Assembly: GCA_031284085.1 (NCBI GenBank)
Contig: JAITAM010000054.1
Coordinates: 1-10,432, forward strand
Length of the DNA stretch: 10,432 nt
Origin: Spirochaetaceae bacterium
Lineage (GTDB): Bacteria > Spirochaetota > Spirochaetia > Treponematales > Breznakiellaceae
Direction of reading: 5' to 3'
Of this stretch, positions 2,115 through 8,574 are shown one piece after another (the first letter of the stretch is position 1; each line of letters begins with the position of its first letter). The notes below the pieces were generated by a model. The model had not been told where the DNA came from. It saw only the letters and a list, made by a program, of their open reading frames with translations, and ran no database searches. Both the position numbers and the translations under genes were made by a program.

Positions 2115-2903
2115 ATGGGAAAAATGATGAATATGTATCCTACCGAATGGTTTAATGACGATATCTTTTGGAAATCGTATGCGCCTATCTTTTTTGATAA
2201 AGCATCTTGGGAGGAAGTGCCTGCTATGGCTGATAGTATCACCGCCCTTGCTCATCTGCCGCTCTACGAAGAATCTCCCCCTCCTTGCGTTACCCTCCTC
2301 GACCAGTGCTGCGGCTTGGGGCGCTTCTCTTTGGAAATGGCGCGGCGCGGCTTTTCGGTAACCGCCGTTGATATAAATGCCGCCTACCTTGAGACTGCCC
2401 GCGAAGATGCCGCTTACGAAAACCTTGCTTTGTCCTTTGTTCAGGATGACGTCCGCTCATTTGTACTACAGAATACGTTTGATATAGTTACCAATGTGTA
2501 TACCTCATTCGGCTACTTTGCCGATACGGCGCACGATAGGCTGACGGTTAAAAATGCCTTCGAATCTCTCAAAACAAACGGTATTTATGTCGTGGAGACC
2601 TTGGGCAAGGAGATCGCAGTGCGTGATTTTGTGGAGCGGGAATGGCTCACCCGTGAGGGATTAACGGTGCTGACGGAGTATAAGCCGATTAACGACTGGG
2701 AGCAACTGTGGAACCGATGGATTCTTATCAACGAACAGACACGCTTTGAAAAGGTATTTGTCCAAAGGCTATACGCGGCTTCGGAACTGCGCAGCATCTT
2801 TGCGGAGATTGGATTTTCTGATATTGCCGTGTACGGCGATTGGGACGCATCCCCTTACGATAATCGGGCGCGGACAATGATTGTGGTAGGGCGCAGGAGC
2901 TAG
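2115..2903 (+). CDS. Class I SAM-dependent methyltransferase, substrate unknown
   Basis: Predicted soluble methyltransferase of the Rossmann-like class I fold; the acceptor cannot be read from sequence. SAM motif I is LLDQCCGLGRFSLEMA (a D-x-C-C-G-x-G-R variant), followed by the motif II region VTAVDIN with the acidic residue that binds the SAM ribose, and FVQDDVRSF as a likely motif III. The C-terminal half, containing WILINEQ and the final MIVVGRRS, gives the usual beta strands. Several in-frame ATGs exist (2115, 2124, 2127, 2133). I give the first, but the promoter at 2085-2113 favours 2124 or later. The open frame extends back to a GTG at 2055, which lies in the repeat end and has no ribosome binding site. 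The 3' end, including the AGGAG for the next gene, is partly duplicated downstream at 3097-3202. Confidence 0.86.
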   Translation: MGKMMNMYPTEWFNDDIFWKSYAPIFFDKASWEEVPAMADSITALAHLPLYEESPPPCVTLLDQCCGLGRFSLEMARRGFSVTAVDINAAYLETAREDAAYENLALSFVQDDVRSFVLQNTFDIVTNVYTSFGYFADTAHDRLTVKNAFESLKTNGIYVVETLGKEIAVRDFVEREWLTREGLTVLTEYKPINDWEQLWNRWILINEQTRFEKVFVQRLYAASELRSIFAEIGFSDIAVYGDWDASPYDNRARTMIVVGRRS

Positions 2904-2908
2904 TGTAA

Positions 2909-3202
2909 ATGGCACTATTTTTTCGGGGATTATGCGGCGCCCTCGTTTTGTTGGCCCTTCCTGTATATTCTGCCGACTGGTATCAGTCTAATGCAGCAGG
3001 GATGGCGATAGAACCGGCTTTATCGGAGGATACAGCGAAACAAAGCCGCTACAGTCTTTCTATTGAACGTATGCCCGGCTCATCGTTAGCGGATAAATGG
3101 ATTCTTACTACTGAAAGGTTATACACAGCTTTGGAACTGCACAAAACTTTGCGGAAATCGGGCGCGGACAATGATTGTGGTAGGACGCAGGAGCTAGCGT
3201 AA
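2909..3202 (+). pseudogene. Chimeric 97-codon ORF: duplicated secretory N-terminus fused to a methyltransferase remnant
   Basis: Residues 1-62 copy the N-terminus of the next gene, including its signal peptide, with only 6 differences in 187 bp, five of them silent. The frame then continues into a degraded copy of the upstream methyltransferase 3' end: WILTTERLYTALELHKTLR corresponds to WILINEQ...QRLYAASELRSIF and is in the same frame. The last 14 or so codons are out of frame because of a 56-bp loss. It ends TAA at 3200-3202, directly abutting the ATG of the full gene. It has an AGGAG nine bases before its ATG, so it could be translated and exported as a short protein. I infer that it is a by-product of tandem duplication, not a functional gene. 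Confidence 0.85.
3097..3202 (+). repeat. Decayed second copy of the methyltransferase gene's 3' end
   Basis: This aligns with 2717-2908. It starts with the shared ATGGATTCTTA and ends with an almost identical GGACAATGATTGTGGTAG block, stop codon and AGGAG. Relative to the original it lacks 30 bp, 1 bp and 55 bp. It still supplies the ribosome binding site (3189-3193) for the downstream gene. Confidence 0.9.
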
Positions 3203-4222
3203 ATGGCACTATTTTTCCGGGGATTATGCGGCGCTCTCGTTTTGTTAGCCCTTCCTGTGTATTCTGCCGACTGGTATCAGTCTAATGCAGCAGGGATGGC
3301 GATAGAACCGGCTTTATCGGAGGATACAGCGAAACAAAGCCGTTACAGTCTTTCTATTGAACGTATGCCCGCCTCATCGTTAGCGGATAGTTTGAAACAG
3401 TATTACTCCGATCAGTACAGCATTGAGTTGCACATACTCTTTGAAGACGGCAGTGAATACAGCAGGCGCATCTACTGTTTTGATCAAGAGAAGAGGGTCC
3501 GCCTTATTGGGAATTTGAGCAAAAACGCTCTCGATTCCTTTGATTCCATTGAAGTTTACGATAATGCTGGTTTAGTAACGATTGAACAGAGGTTTGCCAG
3601 CGCCAACGAAACACTTATGCAGTACTATTACCGCGACCGAATGCTTATTCGGGTAGAGACGGCTCTTAATGCCCAGCCTCTTACAACGGATTATTACCGT
3701 TACAGCCGCTCCAAGGCATTGCGGTACATCGAAAGGGTCTACCATACCGAGTCTCTGCAAAACCAACGCTTATCCTTCCCTTACGGAAGGAGGCCCATTG
3801 ACCATAGCTTTAATGCGCCTGTGGCTATGATTAACTCCGATTTATCAGAGGTCTTATCGACACTTCATGCAGGCGGCAAGAGCGTGTACACTAACGATGC
3901 GCAGGGGCGCATATTAACGGAAACGCTTTACGATGCAGAAGGCAAGAATATCGGCATCTTGGAGAATATCTGGGATGGCAATAGGATCAAATCGGTTCTC
4001 TTCCGTGCAGGAGAGGATGAGAGGCGGACCGATTATGAATACGATGAAGAGGGGAAACGCATCGCCGAGTTAAACTACAACAAAGGCGTTTTGGAAAGAA
4101 CGGTACGCCGCCAGCAAGACAACGCCGACCGTGAAATTGAAGAGCTTTACTACAACGGGAAGGTTATACTCAGAGCGGTATGGGAACAGGGACGCAGGAT
4201 CTCCGAAGAGCGTCTTCGTTAG
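3203..4222 (+). CDS. Secreted protein of unknown function with MORN/YD-like C-terminal repeats
   Basis: I do not recognise a named family for the whole 339-aa protein. Residues 1-22 form a clear Sec signal peptide with a hydrophobic core (GALVLLALPVYSA) and a cleavage site before DWYQ, and no lipobox cysteine, so a periplasmic or exported protein is expected. The middle is rich in Tyr, Ser and charged residues. The C-terminal third has repeated short strands of the form YDxEGKxI, YEYDEEGKRIAEL, YNKGVLERTV and YYNGKVILRAVWEQG, resembling MORN_2 or YD-type antiparallel beta repeats. AGGAG lies nine bases before the ATG. In the ancestral arrangement this gene followed the methyltransferase by 5 bp, so the two were probably co-transcribed. 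Its first 187 bp are duplicated upstream. Confidence 0.8.
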   Translation: MALFFRGLCGALVLLALPVYSADWYQSNAAGMAIEPALSEDTAKQSRYSLSIERMPASSLADSLKQYYSDQYSIELHILFEDGSEYSRRIYCFDQEKRVRLIGNLSKNALDSFDSIEVYDNAGLVTIEQRFASANETLMQYYYRDRMLIRVETALNAQPLTTDYYRYSRSKALRYIERVYHTESLQNQRLSFPYGRRPIDHSFNAPVAMINSDLSEVLSTLHAGGKSVYTNDAQGRILTETLYDAEGKNIGILENIWDGNRIKSVLFRAGEDERRTDYEYDEEGKRIAELNYNKGVLERTVRRQQDNADREIEELYYNGKVILRAVWEQGRRISEERLR

Positions 4223-4307
4223 TGTGGATTCTTTCCAATTGTGTATCCAACTATCCGGCGGCGCCCTCATATTGTGGTGAAAATGTCGCCTCAAAGCCGG
4301 AAATGTA

Positions 4308-4945
4308 TCAAACAACTTCATAAATACGCTTGATTTCGTTCGGCAGCCGCCACGGTATCCCCCGCTGAGCTTTGTCAAAATCAAATGCCGACTTGAATTG
4401 CTTGCCTTTTTCTTGAAACAGTGCAATATTCCGCCTGAAAGTGCTTAAAATTAGAAACAGAACGAATAGAATGATTTATATCAATAGCAAAATATGCCGC
4501 GAAAATGCCGGCAAGAAAATGCCTCATGCAAGGACCAGCGTTGATTGTCCGCGCAAAAATCGCCGGCTGAATTATCAAAACCAATAAAAGGGCGAACAGC
4601 ACCCAGTATAAAGAAAAGTGCAAAGCTATTCTGCCTTTCAGATTAAAAGCTTCGCTCTGATAATCCCACAGTTTTAAGCCGAACACATAGTCGCGTAACA
4701 GGGAGGTCATGTGTTCCAAGACAGCCGGTAAAAGAACCGTTACTGTCCAGTCGATAATCGGCGATAAGGCCAGCACCTCAACGTGCAGGACGCTAATTAC
4801 CATCACGCCGAATCCATAAATCGGCACAAAAGGACCGGAAAGAAAGGCGGCGTTCACAAATCGCTGTTCTTTATAAGATCGGTATATGGATTCTATGATC
4901 CAACCTGAGAAAGCCGCTATACAAAAGTAAAGAAAATAGCCTCAT
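4308..4945 (-). pseudogene. CmpB-type (PF06541-like) multi-spanning membrane protein, frameshifted
   Basis: The longest frame (4381-4857) starts only at a GTG, but the same frame stays open upstream to 4941 and encodes YFLYFCIAAFSGWIIESIYR, the usual first membrane helix, then the family core LSGPFVPIYGFG and LWDYQSEAFNLKGRIALHFS. An ATG at 4943-4945 is separated from this frame by one extra base (4942), so the start looks frameshifted. After NFKHFQAE near 4430 the frame ends early, whereas the next frame continues with a plausible hydrophilic tail (LFQEKGKQFKSAFDFD ... KRIYEVV) to TGA at 4308-4310. PF06541 proteins are integral membrane proteins loosely linked to ABC transport; function is uncertain. 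The gene follows the peroxidase relic by 13 bp. Two sequencing errors could mimic this, but a decayed neighbour makes real decay likely. Confidence 0.78.
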
Positions 4946-4958
4946 AGCCCATCCGCTG

Positions 4959-5270
4959 TCATCTTTCCAAAAAGGCGCTAATAGCAGCTTCAATATCAAA
5001 AGGATTTTGAGCAGGCCCATACCGATTTACCATTTAATCGCAGAACCCCAAACCCCCTTACCAAGGACTTTCGTGCGCACCGTTTGCATCAATTTTCATA
5101 AACTGTCTAAACGTGGTTTTGTGCCGGAGTATACAAAAGCCGCTTCTTTCGGAAGTCGAACCGGGCGCTTGATTTTCAAGTTGGTTTCAGGGAAAGCCGA
5201 GAATCTCAAACCCTTTTTTAGAGATATCTTTGCCAGAATTATCCTTTAGCGTAAAATCATAGATTTCCAT
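4959..5270 (-). pseudogene. Glutathione peroxidase relic with internal deletions
   Basis: A 104-codon relic beginning at ATG 5268-5270 with GAGGT just upstream. It opens MEIYDFTLKDNSGKDIS, a typical GPx N-terminus, then jumps to KKGFEILGFP, so the roughly 40-residue segment carrying the peroxidatic Cys or Sec is deleted. The next codon is TGA (5187-5189) where the family has Cys in GFPCNQ, followed by NQLENQAPG. Further family blocks are TTFRQFMKIDANG and, at the end, RYGPAQNPFDIEAAISAFL. Two TAA stops interrupt the C-terminal half, near codons 71 and 79, with a deletion around the conserved IKW block. Nearly all blocks still share one frame. Intact members are about 160-180 aa. The enzyme would have reduced peroxides with thiols; this copy cannot. 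Confidence 0.88.
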
Positions 5271-5280
5271 ACTGCACCTC

Positions 5281-5492
5281 TTGAATAAAAGGCAGGTATT
5301 TGGACAAAGAAAGAGCAGGGTTAAAGGGGGTGTGTTTTGGGAATGTTTTTAGTTTTGCTGCGGATTGCAAGAATTTCACGGTCAATTCTTGTACTCAATT
5401 ATACTTGACAAAGCTCTAAAGGGCGGTGTAGTACTGTAGCATACTTCTTCTAAGAATACTATTTCTCCTTTTCTGGTAAAGGGGAGATAAAA
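5281..5492. other. Divergent intergenic DNA with an inverted repeat
   Basis: No gene recognised. It contains a perfect 8-bp inverted repeat, CAAGAATT (5368-5375) and AATTCTTG (5384-5391), around an 8-nt loop, just upstream of a promoter-like sequence. It has no T-run, so an operator or a mobile-element remnant is more likely than a terminator. Confidence 0.4.
5405..5434 (+). promoter_or_regulatory. Candidate promoter upstream of the small ORF
   Basis: A perfect TTGACA (5405-5410) is followed after 16-18 bp by a weak -10 candidate (TGTAGT at 5427-5432 or TAGTAC at 5429-5434). The 8-bp inverted repeat at 5368-5391 lies directly upstream. The only frame it could drive that I find is the 42-codon ORF at 5493. 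Confidence 0.3.
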
Positions 5493-5621
5493 ATGCTTGA
5501 TTGGCTGTGGTGGGTGGGGTACAGAATTCGGGGCCTTGATCAAGCAGTCAGGGGGTTTGATCAAGTGATGAGGGGGCTTGGTCAAACGATGGGGGGCTTG
5601 GTCGGGCGGCAGGGGTTCTGA
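5493..5621 (+). CDS. Small ORF (42 aa) with heptad repeats, possibly a truncated gene
   Basis: Unrecognised. An ATG at 5493-5495 is preceded by AAAGGGGAGATAAAA, one of the best ribosome binding sites in the window. The peptide starts MLDWLWWVGYRI and then runs into 7-residue repeats (RGLDQAV, RGFDQVM, RGLGQTM, GGLVGRQ) encoded by a 21-bp tandem repeat, with hydrophobic residues at fixed positions as in an amphipathic helix. It stops at TGA 5619-5621. A one-base shift there would continue the repeat as DQACGWVW and stay open to about 5832, so this may be the intact 5' end of a frameshifted longer gene. It could equally be a genuine microprotein or a chance ORF. Confidence 0.38.
   Translation: MLDWLWWVGYRIRGLDQAVRGFDQVMRGLGQTMGGLVGRQGF
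5535..5617. repeat. 21-bp tandem repeat, about four units
   Basis: Units start at 5535, 5556 and 5577 with exact 21-bp spacing, and a fourth at 5597 is one base short. Each contains CTTGATCAAG or a variant followed by a G-rich run. A possible fifth unit is TTCTGACCAAGCC at 5616. The 7-codon period preserves frame for the first three units. On the minus strand the same DNA reads as a Pro/Lys-rich 7-residue repeat, so the coding strand is not decided by the repeat alone. Confidence 0.85.
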
Positions 5622-5779
5622 CCAAGCCTGTGGGTGGGTTTGGGCTAGGCGGTGGGATGGCCGTTTGTGGCTGGAGGAAGAAGGCTTTATCCAGCATGTA
5701 AAGCGGGGTATTTTGCTGTTTAGGCGGCACAGGCGGTGCAGAAAATGGGTTATCGGGAGGCTGGAACGCATTTTTTGTT

Positions 5780-6016
5780 ATGAAAAAAACATGAGCCTTC
5801 GGGGAAAACAGCGTATTTTCCCGGGAAAATGAGTCATCCGCTGTGGAAAATGAGTCATCCGCCGCGGAAAATAACGTATTTTCCCAGGAAAATGAAGTAC
5901 CCGCCTTTAAGAATCGCTTCAAATCATCACCCGCAATTCATAAAAAACAGTCTGCTGTGGCGCACAAAGAACTTTTCATCCTTCCTTTTTTGAGACAGGC
6001 CTGTTTGCCCCTTTAG
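5780..6016 (+). pseudogene. Possible relic of a heptad-repeat protein
   Basis: An ATG at 5780 is followed by three codons and a TGA. From 5795 the same frame is open to TAG at 6014-6016 and reads as 7-residue repeats (ENESSAV, ENESSAA, ENNVFSQ, ENEVPAF) then a basic tail. The stop right after the start and the absence of a ribosome binding site argue for a relic or for non-coding repeat DNA. The minus strand is also open through the array (FSAADDS, FSTADDS), so strand is uncertain. Confidence 0.25.
5804..5908. repeat. Five tandem copies of a 21-bp repeat in an A-B-B-A-B' order
   Basis: Units begin exactly every 21 bp at 5804, 5825, 5846, 5867 and 5888, each with GAAAA. Units 1 and 4 share CGTATTTTCCC. 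Units 2 and 3 share GAAAATGAGTCATCCGC and differ only near their ends. Unit 5 is a diverged B type. The unit 1/2 junction forms a perfect 16-bp palindrome, ATTTTCCCGGGAAAAT (5814-5829). No spacers are present, so it is not CRISPR. Confidence 0.92.
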
Positions 6017-6386
6017 ATACAATAGCGAAACTAGGAGACAGACCAAGGGGGACAGACCCCAGACCGCTCCTAAGCGGTGCGTTCTGCATTGGGTAAATGT
6101 AGTTCGGAGGGCGCTTTCGTAACGGTGGACGACGCGTGTTATGCGGTAGACCACGGCAATGTCCAAGAATTCTCTGGCGATCTTGCCTCCCGCACATGAG
6201 TCGAGAATTGCCTATGGCATACCGGTTTCCGCCTAAATAACGGTTAGGTTTAGGATAACCAAAGTCTGATTGTCTATGATGAGGGCGCAGTGCGGTAAGG
6301 CTCGAGGTCAATTCCCATCATGTGATAAAGCGGAGACTTCGTATAATAGACCAATATCGCAAGCGCAAAACCGTCGCATAAAAATA
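6017..6386. other. Unassigned region before the AT-rich gene
   Basis: No convincing gene. The first part (6033-6057) has GGAGACAGACCAAGGGGGACAGACCCC-type wording similar to the block near dapB. On the minus strand 6285-6384 encodes a protein-like stretch (VYYTKSPLYHMMGIDLEPYR) that runs into TAG and changes frame, suggesting an unrecognised gene remnant. Base composition is ordinary here and becomes AT-rich abruptly near 6380. Confidence 0.35.
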
Positions 6387-6415
6387 TTGACCAAGATAAG
6401 AAGAATAGATATATT
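6387..6415 (+). promoter_or_regulatory. Promoter of the DUF6483-type gene
   Basis: TTGACC (6387-6392), a 17-bp spacer and TATATT (6410-6415) form a good sigma-70 promoter about 30 bp before the ATG. It lies inside the AT-rich segment, so the gene appears to have arrived with its own promoter. Confidence 0.6.
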
Positions 6416-6445
6416 CATAACAACTTGTGAATTAAAGGAACAAAA

Positions 6446-7078
6446 ATGGTTCAGAGGGATTATATCGTAAGAATAATTGAACAGTTCGCTGCTTTTTTAT
6501 GGGCTATTATTTTCAATAAAAAGATAAGAAACTATGATATTGCATTGGAAAAAATAGAAGAAGCATATAACGAGTTATTAAATTCAAAGAGTAATAAAAT
6601 AAAAAGCCTTGAAGTTGATGAGATCGTAAAAAGTAATACTTATGAAAAAGTATTGAATACAGACAATATTGAAATAATAGCAAACCTTCTTTCTGAAGAA
6701 GCGGATATAATAGAACAGATTAATGGATTGAATAGAATTACTTCAGAATATTACCAGAAGTCATTTGTCTTATTTTATGTATTAGCAAATAAAATGAATA
6801 CAAGAAAACATGATGAAAAAATAGATGAAATAATAAGTAAACTTAACGATTATGAACTAATTGATGAAACAAGATATAAAATATATGAATATTATGAAGA
6901 GAAGGGATTATATGGAAAGGCGGAAGATAAATTATATGAATTAAAAGAAGACAATTATCCAAATATAACAAATACGATAAAAATATTTTATGAAAGAATG
7001 TTGGAAAAAGATAACGAAACATTAGAAAAGGGAAACCTTCCCCGAAATGAAATACTGGAAGAAATGGATAAATTATAA
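6446..7078 (+). CDS. DUF6483-type protein, probably acquired from AT-rich Firmicutes
   Basis: A 210-aa cytoplasmic, largely helical protein of unknown function. The N-terminus MVQRDYIVRIIEQFAAFLWA followed by IIFNKKIRNYDIALEKIEEAYNELL is what I recall of the DUF6483 family, as are YGKAEDKLYEL and the C-terminal ETLEKGNLPRNEILEE; the helix-pair look suggests a TPR-like fold. AAAGGA lies seven bases before the ATG. The gene is far richer in A+T than everything around it, with codons ending mostly in A or T. It has its own promoter, and the AT-rich zone ends at about 7104. Known relatives are mainly in Firmicutes, so lateral transfer is the simplest explanation. No integrase or transposase accompanies it in this window. 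Confidence 0.82.
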   Translation: MVQRDYIVRIIEQFAAFLWAIIFNKKIRNYDIALEKIEEAYNELLNSKSNKIKSLEVDEIVKSNTYEKVLNTDNIEIIANLLSEEADIIEQINGLNRITSEYYQKSFVLFYVLANKMNTRKHDEKIDEIISKLNDYELIDETRYKIYEYYEEKGLYGKAEDKLYELKEDNYPNITNTIKIFYERMLEKDNETLEKGNLPRNEILEEMDKL

Positions 7079-7230
7079 CAATAAAATATATAAACAAAAA
7101 AACGGCACATTACAGGCATCATTGCCATGCCCATTTCAAAAGATTCGCACTTGCAAATCGCTTTTTTAGAGACAGACCTGCCTGCAGCTCCTCGTTACCG
7201 CGCCGGAAACTTAAAAATAGGCTCTGCCTG
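7079..7230. other. Convergent intergenic region with a dispersed-repeat-like block
   Basis: AT-rich flank to about 7104, then ordinary DNA. The block CTTTTTTAGAGACAGACCTGCC (7161-7182) resembles CTTTTTTGAGACAGGCCTG at 5985-6003, pointing to a short dispersed element. No gene is supported here. Confidence 0.35.
7211..7230 (-). terminator. Weak intrinsic terminator candidate after the 237-aa lipoprotein gene
   Basis: On the minus strand, directly after the TAA, AGGC-AGA-GCCT forms a 4-bp stem followed by ATTTTTAA. The stem is short, so this is only a candidate. Confidence 0.3.
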
Positions 7231-8104: not shown

Positions 8105-8329
8105 CTAAAGGCTTTTTCCCACCTCTGCTAAAAGAGAAAAACTCTCAGGGTCTTTTCTTCGGCCTTTGCTGCTTTGTTCAAGAAGCTGCTCTTCTTCAAA
8201 AGACAGGAACTTATCCGTATCAACTAGTGCGTCAAGCAAGGGTCTTAACCTATACAGATTATGTTCCGGCATACTATCAATAATCTTATGTATTTCATTT
8301 CTCAGTGCGATAATCTTGTCCATAATCAC
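8105..8329 (-). CDS. Probable antitoxin partner of the RelE-like toxin (74 aa)
   Basis: Small protein starting at GTG 8327-8329 or, more likely, at ATG 8321-8323 (MDKIIALRNEIHKII). It begins with an amphipathic helix and a MPEHNLYRLRPLLDALVD segment, then an acidic LSFEEEQLLEQ stretch and a short tail. This order is typical of small antitoxins that accompany RelE/ParE toxins in toxin-first operons, although I cannot name the family or see a clear DNA-binding motif. It begins right after the toxin stop (TGA immediately followed by GTG), so the two are translationally coupled. If the toxin is inactive, this gene has lost its role. Confidence 0.62.
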   Translation of the reverse strand: MIMDKIIALRNEIHKIIDSMPEHNLYRLRPLLDALVDTDKFLSFEEEQLLEQSSKGRRKDPESFSLLAEVGKSL

Positions 8330-8574
8330 TCAAGTTCTTCTGTATATTTGTCCGTGCGGGGCTATTTTGAAAACGGTACTACAGTCTGTTTCTATCGGGT
8401 AAAGAATTCCGTAAGCTCTTCCTCTTAAATGGAACACGCCGGAATGTCCTCTTAGTTCCTTAATATCCACTTTCTGCGGTTCCGCTTCCAGCCAATCAGT
8501 AGCAGAATTAACCCGACTCATAAGCGACAGCATAAAAACCGCCACACGAAGGCTTTATCTATTGTTCCCGCCAT
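8330..8574 (-). pseudogene. RelE/ParE-family toxin, apparently frameshifted near its start
   Basis: The C-terminal half matches the RelE fold core: VDIKELRGHSGVFHLRGRAY, GILYPIE and FKIAPHGQIYRRT correspond to the family pattern of LxG...G.(Y/F)RLRVGDYRI(L/I)Y...V..I.HR..(V/I)YR. RelE toxins are ribosome-dependent mRNA nucleases; ParE relatives poison gyrase. The open frame with these motifs begins only at GTG 8543-8545 without a ribosome binding site and is about 71 codons, short for the family. An upstream ATG at 8572-8574 has a strong GGAGG five bases before it, but its frame (MAGTIDKAFVWRF) stops after 18 codons. Adding one T to the TTTTT run at 8534-8538 would join them into one protein of about 80 residues. 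A sequencing error or an alternative start remains possible. Confidence 0.6.

Follow-up and report, generated by a model that had tools for sequence, protein, structure and literature searches.

How a reading frame came to lie between two intact genes

What is a short reading frame that starts like an exported protein, continues like a methyltransferase and stands between intact genes for both, and how did it come to be there? The question is raised by a 97-codon open reading frame (positions 2909 to 3202, plus strand), delimited from a list of open reading frames and by alignment, in a stretch of spirochaete DNA of 10,432 nucleotides that we call the window. The window is contig 39 of a metagenome-assembled genome (G000) of 1,779,700 bases in 247 contigs, 67.6% complete, whose likely source habitat we take to be the termite gut. 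A preliminary description of the sequence had derived the frame from a tandem duplication and had seen in it the direct origin of a small exported protein. The window contains no tRNA, its promoter-like and terminator-like sites are no more frequent than in shuffled sequence, and searches for near-identical DNA among plasmids and among phages returned no match.

The upstream parent is a SAM-dependent methyltransferase gene (2124 to 2903, plus strand; Pfam Methyltransf_25, 2.5e-15) with an 82% orthologue in G002, another genome of the genus. Its start is likely to be among the in-frame ATG codons at 2115 to 2133, and the longest mechanical reading frame begins with GTG at 2055. Against solved structures it matched 19 distinct sequences, the best being 9ri2_A (1.6e-24), which is named as a putative methyltransferase. 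The downstream parent is a secreted-protein gene of 339 codons (3203 to 4222, plus strand), whose G002 orthologue is 69% identical over residues 1 to 339. Both genes are open at full length when compared with G002, and both are intact.

Where homologues of the secreted protein bear organism names, these are Treponema, Leadbettera and other spirochaetes. Modelled from 53 sequences, the 339-residue protein reached a pLDDT of 86.3 and a pTM of 0.76, and in the model the first 62 residues, those retained in the short frame, form an N-terminal helix (likely a signal peptide) and three strands. Foldseek searches with this model returned RHS effectors, Teneurins, parts of Tc complexes and OspA mutants, none of the best 50 matches listed having a query TM-score above 0.28; because these scores are low, we claim a loose repeat-beta likeness (RHS/YD repeats) and nothing further. 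The Pfam RHS_repeat family stayed under its cut-off (18.6 versus 22), no other Pfam family scored above cut-off, and a sequence search of the protein's profile against solved structures gave no match at E 1e-3. The family, exported and beta-rich, was present in 32 of the 35 genomes searched within the bacterial family, G000 included, and gave weak matches in 2 of 23 genomes from other families of the order.

A tandem duplication across the gene boundary

A direct repeat of 241 nt, ungapped and 95% identical, links positions 2855 to 3095 with 3149 to 3389 in a mechanical repeat search, and blastn reports it as 234 nt at 96.6%. A tandem repeat of this length and identity is far beyond chance. 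The donor segment (2717 to 2908, plus strand; 192 nt) comprises the 3' end of the methyltransferase gene together with the bases that lead up to the next ATG, AGGAG among them, and it reappears at 3097 to 3202 in 106 nt. The second copy is thus 86 nt shorter, as the preliminary description had stated, and we read this shortfall from the alignments as three losses: 30 nt (in frame), 1 nt and 55 nt. The first copy of the secreted-protein 5' end (2909 to 3095, plus strand) differs from the second (3203 to 3389, plus strand, within the full-length gene) at 6 of 187 sites. Five of these differences are silent, as had been reported, and lie in codons 5, 11, 15, 19 and 47; the sixth is a replacement in codon 57 (GGC Gly in the first copy, GCC Ala in the second). 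The duplication that had been proposed, of a methyltransferase 3' end together with a secretory N-terminus, is therefore borne out by the repeat and by the few differences within it. The copy lies head to tail with an intact parent gene on each side, a feature of short-junction tandem duplications.

Between the two copies, the segment 3096 to 3202 (plus strand) holds the duplication junction and the shortened, decayed methyltransferase 3' end, and it also contains the ribosome binding site of the 339-codon gene that follows. The junction, at about 3095 to 3098, reads GCGGATA-A-ATGGATT, against GCGGATAGTTT and CCGATGGATT in the parents; the bases in common are a few at most, and later mutation is possible. 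We consider it very unlikely that the repeat is an artefact of assembly or of strain mixing. G000 is indeed fragmented and incomplete, and the protein database holds no independent copy of the 97-residue protein, but the copies differ at six sites, their longest identical run is 83 bp, and the junction has only a few bases in common with either parent. Since the copies differ and junction homology is minimal, a k-mer assembler would have had no obvious reason to join the sequence there.

We compared the locus with its relatives. A DNA search of the four genomes of the genus with both genes gave matches in G000 itself and in one of the three relatives, G002, which is the nearest relative having the locus. 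In G002 (JAISMB010000057.1, Spirochaetaceae bacterium isolate Im510_bin15; locus L032) the methyltransferase gene (4219 to 4992) and the secreted-protein gene (5001 to 6023; 69% identity) are 8 bp apart, without a repeat, so that the single-copy arrangement sought in relatives was found. The other two genomes, G001 and G003, contain only proteins more distantly related to the secreted one (37% and 44%). Because the sole DNA-matching relative in the genus has the single-copy order, the duplication is probably derived and the single-copy order probably ancestral, judging from this one outgroup.

The comparison was extended to 30 other loci (L003 to L032, of which L003 and L032 are one place), most with flanks of about 1.5 kb. 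The 97-residue sequence matched 19 of them at E 1e-3, once each; with E up to 10, 25 of the 30 matched and 7 had second matches, at E 1.0 to 8.7. The methyltransferase matched L003 and L032 only. In five other genomes (G004, G005, G008, G016 and G020) both genes were found on separate contigs, and for this reason the adjacency of the two genes may be peculiar to G000 and G002, within the limits set by fragmented assemblies.

Direct repeats are common in both genomes. We sampled 20 contigs of G000 other than the window's own (175,600 bases) and 20 of G002 (191,177 bases): repeats of at least 60 bp within 3 kb occurred in 12 and 16 of them, respectively, and with a spacing of at least 100 bp the counts were 10 and 14. 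Many of the sampled repeats are short-unit arrays, and one (L077, 9521 to 9990) is a 78-codon repeat within a 583-codon frame. Given how common they are, tandem duplication appears ordinary in the two genomes, these counts not being specific to copies at gene boundaries. Antigenic-cassette variation was set aside by judgement, as the locus contains one fragment only and gives no indication of varying.

The window has further features that we record in their own right. Upstream of the methyltransferase gene, 1640 to 2130 is a dispersed repeat with at least 75 matches in its own genome, its own place included, a lower bound since 40 of 321 candidates were scored. It holds a 23-bp tandem array (1731 to 1868) and two 44-nt units 53 bp apart, and its part from 1900 to 2110 had no match in the three other genus genomes in a search run without a positive control. 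The segments 4223 to 5402 and 5566 to 7230 lack a counterpart between the orthologous G002 genes; a partial ABC_trans_CmpB gene (4381 to 4857, minus strand) lies in the first and an AT-rich DUF6483 gene (6446 to 7078) in the second. Two 21-bp tandem arrays (5530 to 5600 and 5824 to 5872) lie in DNA without a recognised gene. On the minus strand, 8105 to 8545 holds two small adjacent reading frames (74 and 71 codons), where the G002 counterparts of the flanking genes, taken as mechanical reading frames, are 5 bp apart. We take this arrangement to recall a toxin-antitoxin pair; neither frame matched a Pfam or NCBIfam family.

The chimeric frame

The 97-codon frame has AGGAG 9 nt before its ATG and, as judged by eye, a signal-peptide-like N-terminus, which agrees with the preliminary description; the ATG of the 339-codon gene follows its TAA without a gap. 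Residues 1 to 62 are those of the secreted protein, residue 57 excepted. The middle of the frame had been assigned to the native methyltransferase frame, and this is correct for WIL (residues 64 to 66) and RLYTALEL (residues 70 to 77, versus RLYAASEL), about 15 codons aligned with an in-frame gap. Past about codon 78 the methyltransferase frame is lost, and the assignment fails for the last 20 or so residues, which are out of frame. The 105-nt continuation stayed open in 718 of 5000 dinucleotide shuffles (14%), and its openness is thus not beyond chance.

A search of 5.8 billion proteins, covering lengths 0.55 to 1.75 times that of the query (about 53 to 170 residues) and relatives with short exact words in common, returned the 97-residue query itself as the sole match. 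A single-sequence model had low confidence (pLDDT 56.7, pTM 0.22) and is uninformative either way. Predicted RNA folding of the two start regions gave -19.8 and -14.8 kcal/mol (z against shuffles, -0.46 and 0.92); as neither differs from its shuffles, we claim no structural RNA role for them. Conservation of the frame as a separate gene, expected of an established small secreted protein, was not found in relatives: the protein search met only the query, and L032 is single-copy. The solitary search result and the mostly out-of-frame tail also tell against the new exported protein that had been envisaged. Most likely the frame is now a by-product, at most a translated leader cistron, rather than an established exported protein.

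Which copy changed

The excess of silent differences had been taken to mean that the duplication is recent or that the sequence is constrained. With G002 as the outgroup (56 of 186 sites from copy 1, 59 of 186 from copy 2), the changes in codons 5, 11, 15 and 47 fall to copy 2 (the full-length gene) and the replacement (A57G) to copy 1 (the 97-codon copy), leaving codon 19 ambiguous; because this outgroup is distant, each assignment is only probable. With four of the five silent changes on copy 2, the ratio of five in six mostly mirrors selection on the full-length gene. The idea that the duplication is recent also became doubtful: about 44 silent sites of the copies include 5 that differ, similar to 5 of 38 alignable sites in the decayed methyltransferase part. 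Of those 5 sites, 4 are placed on copy 2, all as G/C-to-A/T changes. Four of the 5 differences, all within 3119 to 3141, fall at copy-1 CpG sites (3 when the difference placed on copy 1 is omitted), a number too small to interpret.

The low-divergence block, about 3156 to 3389, has 8 differences in 232 sites and extends some 46 bp upstream of the ATG (2 of 46 there). Both this extension and the contrast with the decayed part (5 of 38 versus 8 of 232, P 0.023) would fit an old duplication in which gene conversion with copy 1 later evened out the block but spared the decayed part. We find this highly improbable, since the 46-bp stretch is itself indistinguishable from the decayed part (P 0.24), and divergence at the block's silent sites matches that of the decayed part, so that no such reset is needed.

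As to the constraint half of the earlier inference, copy 1 is short of changes in most tests: it has 1 to 2 changes in 186 sites, compared with about 10% at neutral-like sites in the rest of the repeat. On the assumption that copy 1 is free to drift and that no replacements are tolerated in the full gene, one replacement among six changes has P 0.034, and at most one in six has P 0.0033 to 0.085 across mutation models and selection strengths on the full gene. The replacement shortage has P 0.005 with the decayed sites added (11 events) and P 0.008 when only the decayed sites serve for comparison (5 events); if every change on copy 1 is counted, P is 0.0002 to 0.002 (10 events). For the copy-1 share of the six changes, P is 0.0012 to 0.11 if that share is at most one and 0.014 to 0.34 if it is at most two. 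All of these tests draw on the same few events (5 to 11), were chosen after the data had been seen and mostly depend on the outgroup. Across their range (P 0.0002 to 0.34, 5 to 11 events) they provide a moderate hint against a plain relic and make constraint on the 97-codon copy no more than possible; the signal can disappear should the full gene be under weak constraint itself.

Such a shortage would be expected either from selection on the small frame or from an origin in two alleles. Under the former, the frame would encode a working small exported protein or a decoy of the full-length protein, with purifying selection on its first 62 codons. Besides the shortage itself, the intact AGGAG, the signal-peptide-like start and the retention of W24, S27, N28, G31, S39, A43 and Y48, which are invariant or nearly so in the 53-sequence alignment, are consistent with this. 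We nevertheless regard it as unlikely: the protein search returned the query alone, the sole replacement is placed on the frame's own branch, the tail is out of frame, the frame retains no more than the opening strands of a larger beta fold, and the shortage tests reach P 0.34. We are similarly doubtful of a long-lived chimera in transition between birth and established gene, with the secretory 62 codons selected and the methyltransferase tail trimmed. In a two-allele origin, unequal recombination between strains would have set the 5' end of one strain's gene before that of another, both copies having been constrained within full genes until they were joined. The five silent changes to one replacement would then arise without the 97-codon frame having any function, and the likeness in divergence between silent sites and decayed part would be explained as well. 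This too seems improbable, as it requires a strain with an already decayed methyltransferase end, and none was seen, one other genus genome being DNA-matching.

A probable short-junction duplication in decay

We consider the best reading, and a reasonably probable one, to be a short-junction tandem duplication in decay, comparable to those at sigH in Staphylococcus aureus. The duplicated unit would have measured about 379 bp at birth and would have set the last 61 codons of the methyltransferase behind codon 62 of the secreted-protein gene, leaving a complete methyltransferase gene upstream and a complete secreted-protein gene downstream; slippage or microhomology may have been the cause. Because the join falls in the methyltransferase frame, the frame would at first have encoded a chimera of about 62 + 1 + 61 = 124 residues, if the junction length is unchanged. 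The redundant methyltransferase piece would then have decayed through the three losses (30, 1 and 55 bp) and through base changes, mainly from G/C to A/T, yielding the 97-codon frame, which we infer to be without function. The shortage of changes in copy 1 speaks against such a relic.

Truncated tandem gene duplicates and pseudogene remnants occur in bacterial genomes, with indels and G/C-to-A/T changes. The locus resembles them in having a partial copy beside an intact gene, indels and the same base changes, and departs from typical remnants in that the 5' 62 codons of the fragment have few changes.

The closer parallel is S. aureus, in whose tandem duplications sigH was fused in frame to codon 50 of nusG or to codon 42 of rplK (PMC3486894). 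The units there measured 1210 and 1888 bp with junction repeats of 8 and 7 bp, the parents stayed intact, the duplications were easily lost again, and the chimeras arose under selection in culture and gave an active sigma factor (PMC3486894). The two cases have in common a tandem duplication within a row of genes that joins a downstream gene's start in frame to an upstream gene's end and keeps both parents intact, and we file the locus under this known kind because the topology is the same. Here, in contrast, the unit is only about 379 bp and decayed, and the chimera has no recognised domain and a frame that was later broken. Tandem repeats as long as this one tend to be lost, as stated for short-junction duplications (PMC3486894), so that long persistence of the repeat would not be free.

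The rearrangement thus appears to be of a familiar kind, and the 97-codon frame, on sequence evidence, a putative gene only. As it stands, the locus serves mainly as a caution: counts of silent changes between copies need to be accompanied by asking which copy changed. It is also a clean natural example, with an outgroup, of a boundary-spanning tandem duplication that made a signal-peptide chimera with neither parent harmed. If the 97-codon frame is translated and constrained, it would document a small secreted protein near the start of its emergence.
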